Source: Acidimicrobiaceae bacterium (GTDB lineage: Bacteria > Actinomycetota > Acidimicrobiia > Acidimicrobiales > Ilumatobacteraceae). From it: a stretch of DNA of 33,480 nt. The notes below the pieces were generated by a model. It was given only the letters and a program-made list of their open reading frames with translations. It was not told the DNA's origin and ran no database searches. The position numbers and the translations under genes were made by a program. Positions 3,000 through 30,282 of this stretch are shown here, in pieces; the first letter of the stretch is position 1; every line of letters starts with the position of its first letter. The DNA lies in the NCBI GenBank assembly GCA_002698945.1, contig NZZV01000213.1, positions 1 through 33,480 of the forward strand, in the 5' to 3' direction.

Positions 3000-3005
3000 T
3001 ACGAT
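3000..3005 (+). promoter_or_regulatory. -10 box (TACGAT) for a leaderless LarA-like gene
   Basis: TACGAT ends six bases before ATG 3012. This places the expected transcription start at or next to the start codon. The same TANNNT-to-start spacing recurs at many genes in the window. Confidence 0.55.
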
Positions 3006-3011
3006 CACTCC

Positions 3012-4238
3012 ATGTCGTGGGAGCAACTCGTCACTGGGGTGGAGCTGCCGTTTCCGGATGGCTTGACCGTTCCTGAGCTGCATCGGCTGGAGCTGGAGGT
3101 GCCTTCGCCGCCGGGGGTGCAGGACATCGAGGCGGCGGCGTTCACTGCCACCGTCGACACGTTCACCGATGACGTCACCGACGGGATGACGGTCGCCGTC
3201 GGCGCCGGTTCCCGCGGTCTGACCGGTCGGGTCGAGGTGCTCCGCGGCACCATCCGCGCCCTCAGGCAGCTGGGCGCCGAGCCGTTCGTGGTGCCCGCGA
3301 TGGGGTCGCACGGCGGCGCCACCGCCGACGGCCAACGTCAGATGTTGCACGACCTCGGCATGACCGAGGAAGCACTCGGCGCCGAGATCCGGGCGACGAT
3401 GGACACCGTCGTCGTCGCTCACACGCCATCCGGCACGCCCGTCCACCTCGACGCCAACGCCGCTGCCGCCGACCGCTTCCTGCCGGTCAATCGGGTCAAG
3501 CCGCACACCTGCTTCAAGGGGCCGGTCGAGTCGGGCTGCATGAAGATGGCCGTGGTCGGCTTCGGTAAGCAGCCGGGAGCGGCACTCGTCCACACGTGCG
3601 GGCCGATCGAGATGCGCGACCGCCTCCTCGACGCGTGCGCCGCGCTGCGCGACACCGGCCGCCTGCTCGGCGGCATCGCCACGGTCGAGGCCGGCACCGG
3701 CGAGGTCGTCCGGGTCGAGGGACTCCGCACCGCCGACGTCGGCGGCGACTACGAACACGAACTCACCGAGTACGCACGCGCCCTCGTCCCACCGCTCCCG
3801 TTCGACGAGATCGACGTGCTCATCATCGAGCGCGGCGGCAAGGACATCTCCGGCACGACGATGGACCCCAACGTGACCGGCCGCTTCTGGGTGCCCGGCC
3901 TCGACGATCTCGCCAAGCCACGGGTCAGTTCGATCGTCCTGCTCGACCTGACCGAGGTGAGCGGCGGCAACGCCCTCGGCATGGGGTTCGCCGACTTCAT
4001 CCCGGCGTCGCTCGCGAACAAGCTCGACTTCCGCAAGACCTACATCAACTGCTTCACCGCCGGTCCGGCCGGCATGCGTCGTGCCCGTCTGCCGATGGTG
4101 CTCCCCGACGAGGAGTCGTGCATCAAGGCCGCCGTCGCGATGTGTGGCCGCCCGACGGGCGAACCACTCCGGATCGTTCGCATCGCCAGCACCCTGCACC
4201 TCACCGAGTGCTGGGTCAGCGACGCGCTGCTCCCCTGA
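3012..4238 (+). CDS. Lactate-racemase-domain (LarA N-domain / DUF2088) protein
   Basis: 408 residues. The protein resembles the LarA family of nickel-pincer racemases/epimerases. Visible landmarks are GAGSRGLTG (64-72), VPAMGSHGGATADGQ with His100, and NRVKPHTCFKG with His165, followed by ESGCMKMAVVGFGKQPGA with Lys178 and Lys186 as candidates for the cofactor-bearing lysine. The last two histidine regions match where LarA has its catalytic pair, but I cannot align them exactly, so the substrate is unknown. No larB, larC or larE maturation genes lie nearby. ATG 3012 is preferred to GTG 2988 because a TACGAT -10 box sits six bases upstream and family similarity begins soon after. The gene lies alone between two pilus-like units, 31 bases after the first, and looks functionally unrelated to them. 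Confidence 0.75.
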   Translation: MSWEQLVTGVELPFPDGLTVPELHRLELEVPSPPGVQDIEAAAFTATVDTFTDDVTDGMTVAVGAGSRGLTGRVEVLRGTIRALRQLGAEPFVVPAMGSHGGATADGQRQMLHDLGMTEEALGAEIRATMDTVVVAHTPSGTPVHLDANAAAADRFLPVNRVKPHTCFKGPVESGCMKMAVVGFGKQPGAALVHTCGPIEMRDRLLDACAALRDTGRLLGGIATVEAGTGEVVRVEGLRTADVGGDYEHELTEYARALVPPLPFDEIDVLIIERGGKDISGTTMDPNVTGRFWVPGLDDLAKPRVSSIVLLDLTEVSGGNALGMGFADFIPASLANKLDFRKTYINCFTAGPAGMRRARLPMVLPDEESCIKAAVAMCGRPTGEPLRIVRIASTLHLTECWVSDALLP

Positions 4239-4359
4239 CGCCCACTTCCGCGCCGGTCGCGGGCGACTGCGTCACACCCACCCCTCAAGTTCTGTCCTCC
4301 GCGCGCCGATGAGCTGACGAGCGCCATCCCGCACACGGGCGCTACCAGGGAAAGCGGAC

Positions 4360-4884
4360 ATGGAACACAGGGAACTCATGCGCGGCGCTCGTCGTCGCGA
4401 CACCGGAGCGACGCTCGTCGAGATCGTGATCGCCGTCGTACTCGTCGGCATGGTGCTGACGGTCGTACTCGGCGCCGCACAAGCCTCGATCATCGGGACG
4501 CGGCTCGAACGCGACCACGCCAAGTCCTACCAATGGTTGCAGTCGGCGAACGGCGTGCTCCAAGCCGCCGACCGCGTGAGCTGCGAACACGACCCGGTCA
4601 ACGTGCCGGGTGACGCCGCGTTCGCCAACGGCGAGGACAAGGTCCGCTCGACCTACGAACAGACCCTCCGTACCGGTGTCGTCAACCCGCCGGAGTGGGC
4701 CGACCACCAGCTCAGCGTTCTCTACCCCGTCATGGTGTGGGACGGCTCCCGGTATTGGGACCCCGCCCTGGCACCGAAGCCCTGCTACGACGCCGACGGT
4801 TACCTCCTGCAGTTGGTCACCCTGCAAGTGACGAGCCCGGACGGCGACATCATCGAGACCATCCAGGTGGTGAAGCGTGATTGA
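4360..4884 (+). CDS. Type IV prepilin-like protein (PilV/PulG type)
   Basis: 174 residues. A basic leader (MEHRELMRGARRRDTG) is followed by ATLVEIVIAVVLVGMVL, a class III prepilin signal: cleavage after Gly16, Glu at mature position 5 (Glu21), then a hydrophobic helix that would pack in a pilus or pseudopilus core. The remaining ~130 residues are a small soluble domain with Cys residues (VSCEHD, KPCYDAD) that could form a disulphide. A GGGAAAG ribosome-binding site precedes ATG 4360. It is the first gene of a tight operon: its stop overlaps the GTG of the next prepilin by 8 bases. Role inferred as a minor pilin of a type IV or tight-adherence-like system; no assembly ATPase, platform protein or prepilin peptidase is in the window. 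Confidence 0.8.
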   Translation: MEHRELMRGARRRDTGATLVEIVIAVVLVGMVLTVVLGAAQASIIGTRLERDHAKSYQWLQSANGVLQAADRVSCEHDPVNVPGDAAFANGEDKVRSTYEQTLRTGVVNPPEWADHQLSVLYPVMVWDGSRYWDPALAPKPCYDADGYLLQLVTLQVTSPDGDIIETIQVVKRD

Positions 4885-6601
4885 GCGACCCGCCGAGCGA
4901 CCGGTCGTTCGACCCACCGAACGACCCACCGAGCGACCCGCCGAACGAGCGGTCGTCGGTCCAGCCATGCGACCGGTGACCCGTCGGTCTCGGGACGGGT
5001 TCACCCTGATCGAGGTCCTCATCGTCGTGACGATCATGGGGGTGATCTCGGCTGCACTCGCCGTGGCCTTCACGGTCGTCGTGCGTACTGCGCCCCCCAC
5101 CGAAGCGCGCGCCGACGACGCCCGGTCGCTGCTCGGTATCTCGACCTGGCTACCGGCCGACGTGAGCGCCACTCCTCATGCGCCCGAGACGGCAGCGACC
5201 AACTTCTGGGACGACTCACCTGGGCGCACGACGGGCTGTACCGGCGGTGACGCCGGCATCAACCTCGTTCGCCTCAGCTGGCGCGAGTCGGTCAGCGGCG
5301 CACCGAACATCTTCGTGGCGTCGTACCGTCTCCTCGACGAGGGCGATTCGAGCACGATCGTGCGAGTCTCGTGCGTCAACGGTGGCACGGCCGAGACGCA
5401 GAACCTGACCGCCGGGCTGCCTCCCGTGGCGAGCAACCCGGCCACGGTGACGTGGAAGACGAGTGTCATCGACGGTGTCGTGAACATCATCGGCGTCGAA
5501 CTCGAACTCACGACGTTCGATGGTGACACGCTTCGCGTCGACGCCGCATCTCGCAACCCGGCCGAGACGTTGAGCACGCTTCCGTCTGCCGGCACGACGA
5601 CGACGACCGCACCGCCGACCACCACGTCGACGACCACGACCACGATCCCGAATCAGCCGCCGGTCGCCGACCCGCTCGACTTCAACGCCAACCCCTCGGT
5701 GCCGGTCACGTTCACCCTTCCGGCGTACGACCCCGAGGGTCTCGCTCTCACGGTGACGCTCACGAACGTGCCGGCGACGTGGACATCGTCGGTGTCGGGC
5801 CTCGACGTGACGTTGACCCCCGACGACGTCCACGCCGATTACGTGATCGACTACACCGTGACCGACCCCGGCGGCCTCTCGACGAGCTCCACGATCACGG
5901 TGAAGGTGAATCCGTCGACGACCACGACCACGACGCTCCCGCCGAACGACCCTCCGACCGCAGCTCCGGTCTTGGTGGCCACCGACCCGGGCGTCGAGGT
6001 CGGCGTCAACCTCCCGGTCGTCGACCCGAACGTCGACCCGCTCACCGTGACCCTCGGCACCCTGCCCGACGGATGGTCGGCGCAAGTCGTCACCCTCGAC
6101 GCCGGAGCAACCGCGATCGACGTCGAGATCACGCCGCCAGCGAGCGCCTCACCGGGCATCGCGACGATCGAGTACACCGTGACCGACCCGAGCGGCGCGA
6201 GTGCCACCTCGGTGATCGACGTCGATGTCAGCCGTATCCCGTGTGTCGCGTCGATCCAGTCGGTCAACCCGAACCCGGTCGCCAACGCAAGCAAGAACGG
6301 CAACGGCAACGGCAGCCTGATCGCCCCGCTCGTCGAAGACGTCGACGTCACGATCACGAAGTCGGGCAACTGCAGCGAACTCGTGCTCCGGTACACCCGT
6401 GTGGTCAGTGGACCGACCGGTCACGCTTCCGACGACGATCGGCAACCACAGGTCGACACGTTCGGCGACGGAATCTTGCTCACCTTGCTCTCGTCGTCGG
6501 TCGAGCGCTGGCAGGAAGGCAATCGCCTGCTCCAGCTCGTCGAGTTCGCCGGGCTACCCGAAGAGATCGTCCACGATTCCGAAACCCTGGTGGTGGAGTG
6601 A
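4877..6601 (+). CDS. Large prepilin-like protein with Ig/cadherin-like modules
   Basis: 574 residues from GTG 4877, which overlaps the previous stop and has AGGTGG seven bases upstream. The prepilin motif DGFTLIEVLIVVTIM starts at residue 40, so this start gives an unusual 41-residue leader built of R-P-x-x repeats. An in-frame ATG at 4967 would give a conventional 11-residue leader. After the pilin helix comes a ~180-residue globular domain. A Thr-rich linker follows (around 235-255), then an Ig/cadherin-like module (NQPPVADPLDF to TVTDPGGLSTSS), a second Thr linker, a second module (TDPGVEVGVNLP to TVTDPSGASATS), and a C-terminal domain with NGNGNG and paired cysteines. It would sit at a pilus tip or surface as an adhesive or structural subunit; that role is inference. 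Stop and next start overlap as TGATG. Confidence 0.78.
   Translation: MIERPAERPVVRPTERPTERPAERAVVGPAMRPVTRRSRDGFTLIEVLIVVTIMGVISAALAVAFTVVVRTAPPTEARADDARSLLGISTWLPADVSATPHAPETAATNFWDDSPGRTTGCTGGDAGINLVRLSWRESVSGAPNIFVASYRLLDEGDSSTIVRVSCVNGGTAETQNLTAGLPPVASNPATVTWKTSVIDGVVNIIGVELELTTFDGDTLRVDAASRNPAETLSTLPSAGTTTTTAPPTTTSTTTTTIPNQPPVADPLDFNANPSVPVTFTLPAYDPEGLALTVTLTNVPATWTSSVSGLDVTLTPDDVHADYVIDYTVTDPGGLSTSSTITVKVNPSTTTTTTLPPNDPPTAAPVLVATDPGVEVGVNLPVVDPNVDPLTVTLGTLPDGWSAQVVTLDAGATAIDVEITPPASASPGIATIEYTVTDPSGASATSVIDVDVSRIPCVASIQSVNPNPVANASKNGNGNGSLIAPLVEDVDVTITKSGNCSELVLRYTRVVSGPTGHASDDDRQPQVDTFGDGILLTLLSSSVERWQEGNRLLQLVEFAGLPEEIVHDSETLVVE
4886..4957 (+). repeat. Six imperfect 12-nt repeats encoding R-P-x-x in the prepilin leader
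   Basis: Six consecutive 12-base units beginning CGACC (or CGAGC in the last) encode RPAE, RPVV, RPTE, RPTE, RPAE, RAVV. They lie between the GTG start at 4877 and the alternative ATG at 4967. Unit length is a multiple of three, so copy-number change would preserve the frame. Confidence 0.75.
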
Positions 6602-28387: not shown

Positions 28388-28513
28388 TTTGTGGAAGCGA
28401 ACGTGCTCGCCGCCGTCCTGATGGCTGCCACAGCGTGGACGTCGGAATTCTGCGGAAGCGAACATGCTCTCAGGAGGTCATCGTCGCTTCCACAGAATTC
28501 GTCCACAGAATTC
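28388..28513. repeat. Mixed direct/inverted repeat cluster in a divergent intergenic region
   Basis: GTGGAAGCGAACGTGCTC (28391-28408) recurs as GCGGAAGCGAACATGCTC (28452-28469), 16 of 18 identical. GAATTCTGCGGAAGC (28445-28459) is inverted at 28486-28500 with one difference. A CCACAGAATTC unit is directly repeated at 28490-28500 and 28503-28513. The rest of 28356-28609 shows only the promoter of the following gene. Confidence 0.65.
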
Positions 28514-28595
28514 GGAGGGGGCGGGCAGGGCGCGCCGCCGAGGCGCGGTGGGTCGGCGGCCGCGGGCTGGATGGGTCGCGGCGGGTCGGGATCGG

Positions 28596-28601
28596 TACGC
28601 T
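28596..28601 (+). promoter_or_regulatory. -10 box (TACGCT) for the CAP-domain gene
   Basis: TACGCT is followed by eight bases and GTG 28610, the codon that also places a signal peptide exactly at the N-terminus. Confidence 0.5.
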
Positions 28602-28609
28602 CGGCGATC

Positions 28610-29149
28610 GTGCCCGCCCGACGTCGTCTCGCCGCTGGACTCGTCGCGCTCGTGGCGTTCGGAGCGGTCTGCGTCGTGCCGGTCGTGTCGGCCGGTCCGG
28701 TCCACGAACCGGCCCGGGTCGAGGACCGGGCGTGGCGGGTCGATCCCCCCGACGACGTGGCCGATCCCGCCGGGCACCTCCGGACCGAGACGCTCGACGC
28801 CATCAACGAGGTGCGCGTCGCCGGATCGATGCCCGAGTTGCAGCTCCACGACCGGGTCACGGCCGCCGCGCAGGCACACGCCGACTACCTCGCCTCGATC
28901 CGCTCCCTCAGCCATGCCGGCCCGGGCGGCACCGACACCGGGTTCCGGCTCCAGCAGGCCGGCTTCGCCTGGGTCGCCTGGGGGGAGAACGTCGGCGCGG
29001 GATTCCGTGATCCAGAGCTGCTCGTCGACCGCTGGGTCGACAGTTCCGCCCACCACGCCCAGCTCGTGGGCGAGTACCGATACGCGGGCATCGGCGTCGC
29101 CGCCAGCCCGGACGGCGTTCCCTACTGGGTCCTCGTCCTGGCCACCTGA
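28610..29149 (+). CDS. Secreted CAP (SCP/PR-1-like) domain protein
   Basis: 179 residues from GTG 28610. MPARRR and a hydrophobic core (LAAGLVALVAFGAVCVVPVV) followed by SAGP form a Sec signal peptide. The CAP domain (about 60-179) has LDAINEVRVAGSMPELQL, AAQAHADYLASIRSLSHAGP, the WGENVGAG motif and WVDSSAHHAQLVGEYRYAGI, then the closing strand VPYWVLVLAT. The conserved His pair and Glu of the CAP cavity are visible (SLSHAG, GENVG, SAHH). Bacterial members are extracellular and mostly of unknown activity. A longer frame upstream to 28391 is open but lacks a signal peptide at its start and crosses a repeat cluster, so it was not used. Confidence 0.85.
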   Translation: MPARRRLAAGLVALVAFGAVCVVPVVSAGPVHEPARVEDRAWRVDPPDDVADPAGHLRTETLDAINEVRVAGSMPELQLHDRVTAAAQAHADYLASIRSLSHAGPGGTDTGFRLQQAGFAWVAWGENVGAGFRDPELLVDRWVDSSAHHAQLVGEYRYAGIGVAASPDGVPYWVLVLAT

Positions 29150-29187: not shown

Positions 29188-30282
29188 ATGATCCTGCGCG
29201 ACCTCGATGCCGGCACCGACGAGTTCGAACGGGCGACCGGGTGGAAGATCCGGCCGGAGGGCGCGTGCCGTGGTGACGTCTGCGTCCCGCTCGGCGACGC
29301 CGTGCGCGACGGACGGATCGACGTCGCCGCCGCGTCGCAACGGATGGGCATGCCGCTCGTGCGGGACGACCAACACGATCTGTGGGCGCTCGGACCGTGG
29401 ACCGGCTCGGGCCGGGCGCTCGTGTCGGCCGAGGCACCCGAACTGGCGCTGCCCGACCTCGACGGTGACGAGTTCCGGCTGTCGTCACTGCGCGGCCAGA
29501 AGGTGCTCGTTCTGTCGTGGGCACCATATTGAGGCTGCTCCCGTGACCTGCCCGTGTGGCGGGAGTTGCGTGACGAGCTGTATCCGGCGGGCTTCGAGCT
29601 CGTCACGGTCGGCATGGACACCGTCGGCGCCGATGCCTGCCGACCGTTCATCGAGGCGGCCGCGCCGACGCACCCGTCGCTGATCGACGAGCACCACGCG
29701 ATGGCCGAGCTGTTCGGCGTGGTCAACATCCCGAACAGCGTGTGGATCGACGAAGCGGGCACGATCGTCCGCCCGGCCGAGGCGGCACCTCCGCCCCGTC
29801 GGGAGGAGCGTCCCGGCGCCGCTCCGAGCGACATCCCGGGGCGGTTCGGCGAGATCCTGGGCGAGGCCGCGAAGATCCGGACCGACGCCGAGGCCTACCA
29901 CGCCGCCCTGCGCGACTGGGTCGAGCGGGGTGGCGACAGCGAGTTCGCCCTCGCGCCGGACGAGGTGGTCGAGCGGTCACGCCCGAGAGACGCCGACGCC
30001 GCTCGCGGCACGGCGCACTTCGAGCTCGCCACCCACCTCGAGCAGCAGGGTCACCACGACGCCGCGGTCGACCACTTCCGAGAGGCGCATCGACTGGTGC
30101 CCGACAACTTCTCGTACAAGCGGCAGGCCTGGTCGTTGGAGCCGGGCGCCGACGGCCCGCTCGCCCGGTTCTGGCAGGGTCCGAGCGACGACGACCCGGA
30201 CGCCTGGCCGTACGACGGCGACTGGCTCACCGACGTCCGCGAGTTCGGCGCCGAGAACTACTACCCGTCGTTCACGCCCTGA
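29188..30282 (+). CDS. Thioredoxin-like (redoxin) protein, probable selenoprotein with UGA-encoded Sec115
   Basis: Read through one in-frame TGA (29530-29532) the gene gives 364 residues. The N-terminal part (1-75) has WKIRPEGACRGDVCVPL with Cys27 and Cys32. The redoxin domain (about 80-200) begins AEAPELALPDLDGDEFRLSS, then VLVLSWAPY-U-GCSRDLPVW with Sec at 115 and Cys117. It continues FELVTVGMDTVGADACRPFIE and NIPNSVWIDE with the cis-Pro (182). The C-terminal part (about 235-330) has TPR-like helices (ATHLEQQGHHDAAVDHFREA). Cys-containing relatives that I recall read W-A-x-W-C-G-C, putting Cys exactly at the TGA. A SECIS-like hairpin follows the TGA. ATG 29188 lies six bases after CACGAT. 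Conventional gene calling would split it into 114- and ~243-residue pieces. A nonsense mutation is the alternative. Confidence 0.72.
29538..29565 (+). promoter_or_regulatory. Candidate bacterial SECIS hairpin
   Basis: Six bases after the TGA, CTCCCG (29538-29543) can pair with CGGGAG (29560-29565). Within it CCCG (29551-29554) can alternatively pair with CGGG (29560-29563), closing a TGTGG loop that starts 22 bases after the TGA with a G in its first two positions. That fits the loose bacterial SECIS rules (apical loop 16-37 nt after UGA). The fold was judged by eye only. Confidence 0.5.

Follow-up and report, generated by a model that had tools for sequence, protein, structure and literature searches.

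The UGA at codon 115 of a gene from an Acidimicrobiaceae bacterium very probably encodes selenocysteine (Sec) as an active-site residue of a bacterial redox enzyme. The gene lies within a stretch of 33,480 nucleotides of contig NZZV01000213.1, here called the window, and belongs to a family that earlier work has listed as a predicted selenoprotein; less known are its N-terminal domain, which carries a CX4C cysteine pair, and a set of short-form relatives that also carry the TGA. The explanation in which we have high confidence as a whole is that this is a genuine selenoprotein of the NF041054 family (ResA-like WAxxUGC), with Sec115 decoded with the help of an RNA hairpin and with a likely redox role of the disulfide type. 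The features of the gene are the following.

29188-30282, + strand: whole putative selenoprotein gene, 364 residues, stop codon TGA 30280-30282; NCBIfam NF041054 WAxxUGC_long.
29188-29421, + strand: N-terminal domain, about 78 residues, unmatched in Pfam, the PDB and the other NCBIfam models.
29266-29283, + strand: CX4C pair, Cys27 (29266-29268) and Cys32 (29281-29283), recognized by conservation.
29425-29787, + strand: thioredoxin-fold redoxin domain, residues 80-200; PF00578 AhpC-TSA 50.4 bits, PF08534 Redoxin 41 bits.
29530-29532, + strand: in-frame TGA, codon 115, predicted selenocysteine, from the reading frame and the Cys alignment.
29536-29538, + strand: codon of Cys117, second half of the UGC redox motif, from the alignment of copies.
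29547-29563, + strand: bacterial SECIS-like hairpin with a 6 bp stem and the 5 nt loop CGUGU (29553-29557).
30013-30108, + strand: single weak TPR-like repeat, residues 276-307; PF07719 24.7 bits, below the cut-off of 27.

In frame 1 of 29188-30282 the sole internal stop is TGA 29530-29532, codon 115, which stands between ...VLSWAPY and GCSRDLPVW.... The initial annotation had read both sides of this codon as a single protein, and this is confirmed by the single internal stop together with an end-to-end match to the equivalog model NF041054.1, "ResA-like WAxxUGC motif-containing protein" (555 bits against a cut-off of 300; model positions 1-353 of 354, residues 1-363 of 364). It had also expected standard annotation to split the gene, and plain ORF finding does return two pieces, 29188-29532 (114 aa) and 29554-30282 (242 aa). 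Since plain ORF calling cuts such genes in two, the enzyme is easily missed in draft genomes. An Rfam scan of the window at gathering scores gave no match. The neighbors of the gene in the window encode a CAP-domain protein and an SNF2-type helicase, and at 354-1487 there is a 377 aa ORF that by eye resembles an IS630-type transposase.

Relatives were collected by searching 61 related genomes with the read-through protein (members at E <1e-20), by a survey of the class covering 198 genomes, to which further stretches were added, and by a scan of a genome collection that found at least 583 relatives, from which the 80 most similar were retained. Comparison of the last 150 residues reduced the 194 copies to 175 distinct ones, and to 174 when the non-member L059 was dropped. 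Among these 174 distinct copies, which include that of the window and draw in part on the best 80 of at least 583 loci, 163 have TGA and 11 have a Cys codon (TGC or TGT). These counts should not be taken as a fair TGA:Cys frequency, because one of the two search patterns of the collection scan contains CGC written in Cys codons and the ranking favors near relatives of a TGA form. The TGA copies include records titled as Actinomycetota, Pseudomonadota, Acidobacteriota and Chloroflexota groups. Within the 61 related genomes, TGA-bearing members occur in 27 and Cys-bearing members alone in 3.

Gly-Cys follows the Sec/Cys codon in every one of the 174 distinct copies among the matches listed. In an alignment of 39 rows from which partial copies were excluded (A1), Cys27, Cys32, Sec/Cys115, Gly116 and Cys117 are invariant, and the same five positions are invariant in a second alignment (A2) of the window with 55 of the best 80 of at least 583 loci. 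Across residue 115 the Cys homologues align as WCGC, which bears out the proposal that the TGA takes the place of the first Cys of a W-C-G-C motif.

On one contig (G024:C519; L047/L111), three diverged TGA paralogues lie within about 5 kb, at 72-1187 and 1243-2280 on the minus strand and at 4050-5132 on the plus strand. Genome G040 has five matches to the N-terminal domain, one of them in a frame-shifted copy, L051. L091, L092 and L094, which also carry the gene, are metagenome bins whose titles, Klebsiella pneumoniae and Bifidobacterium breve, look wrong for these sequences.

The TGA is followed by a hairpin, CCUGCC-CGUGU-GGCGGG. A hairpin with G in its loop had been placed about 22 nt downstream; the hairpin itself is there, and the distance needs correction, as it begins 14 nt and its loop 20 nt after the TGA. 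The bSECIS model as outlined in a 2026 review has a loop of 3-9 nt, an upper stem of 4-16 bp, G in loop positions 1-2 and a loop 16-37 nt from the UGA (PMC13188914). A SECIS assessment of the sequence downstream of the TGA, made by hand, found agreement with each of these published constraints: the loop is 5 nt, the stem 6 bp, G is at position 2 and the distance is 20 nt.

The hairpin is nearly always whole in TGA copies and rarely in Cys copies. All six pairs are present in 153 of the 163 TGA copies among the matches listed and five pairs in the other 10, where the outer pair is absent in 9 and an inner pair in L188; one Cys copy in 11 (L179) has all six. Codons on the two sides of the stem are coupled: Leu CTG occurs with CAG or CGG in 146 of 146 cases and Leu TTG with CAA or CGA in 11 of 15 (Fisher p = 6e-13 for the first 113 copies, with kinship ignored). 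In L190, Leu CTT and Lys AAG turn a G-C pair into T-A, a compensatory double change. The Leu codon of the stem ends in G in all 113 copies of the first set, whereas in the rest of these genes 51.6% of the 2790 Leu codons do. Within this first set 677 of the 678 stem pairs form, a proportion that falls to between 24 and 71% when the 3' partner is slid by 1 to 3 bases. The second base of the loop is G in all 163 TGA copies and in 7 of the 11 Cys copies.

Folding predictions for the window copy are less straightforward. In a free 45-nt RNA, a longer competing hairpin is predicted at -20.6 kcal/mol versus -9.7 kcal/mol for the conserved one; the conserved hairpin dominates with 12 or 14 nt past the UGA treated as covered, and not with 6 or 9. 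For this copy the explanation requires the assumption that the competing hairpin is removed by the ribosome. Over the family, the inner five pairs reach a mean P > 0.5 in 135 of 163 TGA copies as free RNA, a number that rises to 151 when 12 nt are covered, and in 2 of the 11 Cys copies, free or covered alike.

The host genome (G000; 4.36 Mb in 226 contigs, 81.8% complete) has the machinery to decode such a codon. Its tRNA-Sec, with anticodon TCA, scores 66.6 bits, the next-best match to the model in this genome being well below at 43.2 bits; SelA scores 413 bits, SelB, directly after SelA on contig C151, 249 bits, and SelD 323.6 bits. Each of the four, whose presence in the same genome the initial annotation had proposed as a check, is over its curated cut-off; a genome devoid of selA, selB and tRNA-Sec, the outcome it had set against itself, is not what we find. 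For comparison, in 14 control genomes the tRNA-Sec, SelB and SelD models match in all 14 at E 0.001 and are over cut-off in 5, 2 and 2, respectively, and the SelA model matches in 4 at E 0.001 and is over cut-off in 1.

Across genomes, SelA over cut-off accompanies the TGA form in 26 of 27 cases versus 0 of 3 for the Cys form among the 61 relatives, and in 50 of 52 versus 1 of 8 in the class survey, from whose TGA/Cys counts G087 is excluded as its fragment stops short of the Sec site. Both sets combined give 67 of 70 TGA-form versus 1 of 8 Cys-form genomes, in a class where SelA is common anyway (82 of 137 member-free genomes carry it). On a quick tree of 93 members from these genomes with at least 180 residues, 8 of them Cys, a minimum of 5 changes between Sec and Cys is required, of which well-supported branches force 3. 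The association between Sec and SelA cannot reach significance on the tree because it offers 3 independent pairs only (sign test p 0.25).

The exceptions fall on both sides. Three TGA-form genomes, G015, G230 and G217 (90, 79 and 70% complete), have no SelA match and no SelB over cut-off; their tRNA-Sec matches score 66.8 bits, 68 bits and just 42.7 bits, respectively, and the selAB stretch may be absent from the assemblies of G015 and G230. In the 8 Cys-form genomes the best matches to the tRNA-Sec model range from 41.9 to 47.5 bits, the gathering score being 47; those of G058 and G232, at 47.5 bits half a bit above it, are taken for ordinary tRNAs. The Cys-form genome G205 has SelA and SelB, with no tRNA-Sec over 44.9 bits. 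There, SelA (602.9 bits) adjoins SelB (378.9 bits) on contig C418, which may be a contaminating contig or hold a different SelA type. Both forms are seen within one genus (g105), where G159 has Cys and lacks SelA, SelB over cut-off and tRNA-Sec over 44.5 bits, and G135 and G213 have TGA along with SelA, SelB and tRNA-Sec. The family provides a natural series of Sec/Cys exchange, with both forms in one genus and the Cys form alongside missing Sec machinery.

The redoxin domain that holds the UGC motif is preceded by a domain with no annotation of its own. A profile of 23 N-terminal rows had a best E of 0.26 against the PDB, which we take as chance, and the 23 members searched against Pfam and NCBIfam gave, besides NF041054, scattered weak matches in 1-2 members each (best 0.067 for Pfam and 0.013 for NCBIfam). 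In the 61 relatives, the domain profile yields 43 matches in 30 genomes, all at loci of the NF041054 family. Of the copies among the matches listed, 172 could be scored for a CX4C pair in the 105 residues upstream, and 171 have it; two further copies were too short, and in L158 both Cys are kept at a spacing wider than CX4C. This unannotated CX4C domain poses a concrete and cheap biochemical question.

Gene neighborhoods are variable. Clustering of neighboring ORFs in the best 80 of at least 583 loci and the window, many of them with short flanks, found no gene shared more widely than within a clade. In 13 of those loci a gene that looks GST-like by eye is located no more than 4 kb away, at varying distance and on varying strand, and 9 Acidobacteria-titled loci have in common an upstream ORF that by eye is protease-like. 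A protein search of a plasmid collection (E 1e-10) gave a fragment match alone, to residues 233-320, on two Rhodococcus plasmids. On one of these, Rhodococcus qingshengii plasmid pLP4 (L220), the stretch 3001-3264 resembles residues 233-320 with the redoxin part absent and overlaps a CDS for a 93 aa hypothetical protein; it is perhaps a remnant.

Judged from sequence, the likely role is that of a cytosolic ResA/TlpA-like selenol-disulfide oxidoreductase in which UGC and CX4C would act in relay. UGA 115 would be decoded as Sec by SelB and tRNA-Sec, aided by the hairpin 14 nt downstream, a step for which the sequence support is strong. The protein is probably cytosolic, and by eye no signal peptide is evident in the read-through protein. 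From position and chemistry, Sec115 would most likely attack a disulfide or oxidized thiol substrate, and Cys117 would resolve the Sec115 adduct, giving an internal selenosulfide. The invariance of the Cys27/Cys32 pair suggests that it may take over or deliver electrons, and the TPR-like part at the C-terminus probably serves to hold a partner or substrate.

The protein could also be a real selenoprotein that is chiefly a peroxidase, with Sec115 reducing hydroperoxides and Cys117 and the CX4C pair recycling Sec115. PF00578 AhpC-TSA as the top Pfam match would agree with this, as would the name Prx-like given to the family in papers of 2008 and 2022 (PMC2398784, PMC9312934). However, the named NCBIfam neighbors and the best solved structures are mostly disulfide reductases of the TlpA/ResA/DsbE type, and a second Cys two residues on would be better suited to a disulfide-exchange center. 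We consider a chiefly peroxidatic role unlikely, while granting it some plausibility.

Binding of a metal or metalloid (Hg, As or Zn) by the CX4C domain, in a protein that detoxifies or moves it with UGC as a soft ligand, is improbable. An invariant Cys pair in a domain without a match in the PDB might be read in this way, and UGC and CX4C are soft ligand sets, but the ORF clustering, with neighbors judged by eye, reveals no constant neighbor gene, so that no metal operon shows.

We reject the idea that the gene is a pseudogene or an assembly error, that is, that a Cys codon has mutated to TGA or been misread as such, and we give it hardly any credence. The suspicion might arise because the stop lies in frame and the genome is a draft in 226 contigs, and one paralogue in another genome is indeed frame-shifted: L051, a TGA copy of G040, has a frameshift after the Sec site, with 3 TGA counted. 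The same TGA, however, is common to 163 distinct copies among the matches listed, the hairpin is conserved, and purifying selection persists beyond the TGA. Relative to L018, the nearest relative (91% identity), dN/dS is 0.11 upstream of the TGA and 0.10 downstream by our own Nei-Gojobori script; read in its two wrong frames, the downstream part gives 2.6 and 5.7. Of the first 128 copies 122 have TGA, and the aligned stretch of every one of these contains a single stop; the TGA rows of the class survey each show 1 TGA. Decay of the downstream part in close relatives, which had been raised as a sign of a pseudogene, is not seen in these copies apart from the single frame-shifted paralogue L051. 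Genome-wide reassignment of TGA, for example to Trp or Gly (NCBI codes 4 and 25), has nothing but the in-frame TGA in its favor and is rejected as next to inconceivable, as the gene and its neighbor ORF at 28391-29149 both terminate in TGA, the internal TGA aligns with Cys and not with Trp or Gly, and tRNA-Sec and SelA, SelB and SelD are present.

Machinery, Cys alignment and hairpin together argue that the protein is a UGC-motif selenoprotein, as first predicted. Its WAPYUGC motif fits the name of the NF041054 model, from which it differs in nothing of substance, and which matches all 39 members of alignment A1 at E 0.001 or better. The name "WAxxUGC" was not found in the papers searched; the family is known under other words, so that newness is not implied. 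A 2008 ocean survey counted 46 "Prx-like (UGC-containing)" selenoproteins (PMC2398784), and reviews of 2022 and 2026 list a UGC-containing Prx-like or TlpA-family protein (PMC9312934, PMC13188914). As those sources describe them, these selenoproteins combine a pfam00578 or cd02966 domain with UGC, as does the protein of the window (PMC2398784, PMC9312934, PMC13188914), and from the descriptions we infer that they are the NF041054 family. In the published passages on them the N-terminal CX4C domain goes unnamed.

A short-form TGA branch is also left unnamed by the curated model NF041054. In the class survey, 30 of 52 TGA-form genomes have matches of less than 300 bits alone, and 22 of the 23 genomes over the cut-off are of the TGA form; none of the sub-cut-off matches, which are the short forms, extends past position 322 of the 354 in the model. 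A scan of 39 members, which include short forms, showed no other NCBIfam model with a UGC motif. Short-form relatives with an in-frame TGA and five or six hairpin pairs are L172-L176, L185-L215, L042, L045, L056 and L057. Tentatively, and with more doubt than conviction, we suggest that this layout, which has no match in the libraries searched, could represent a self-contained Sec oxidoreductase, with a new N-terminal CX4C fold serving as the built-in electron partner of a UGC thioredoxin center shortened by one residue, a selenosulfide and disulfide relay in one chain, which together with the short-form TGA branch would make up a larger selenoprotein superfamily than is now curated.

With ResA, TlpA and DsbE the protein shares the thioredoxin fold, as residues 81-197 match structure 3kcm at E 1.5e-12 and residues 79-199 match TlpA 1jfu at 5.3e-11. 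It is ResA-like and not ResA, because its scores of 54.4 bits for the ResA model and 37.8 bits for the TlpA model are far under the cut-offs of 170 and 230. Compared with the CxxC of ResA and TlpA, its motif is U/C-G-C, with one residue missing in the structure alignment, and, unlike ResA, TlpA and DsbE, it is by eye without a signal peptide and carries extra N- and C-terminal parts.
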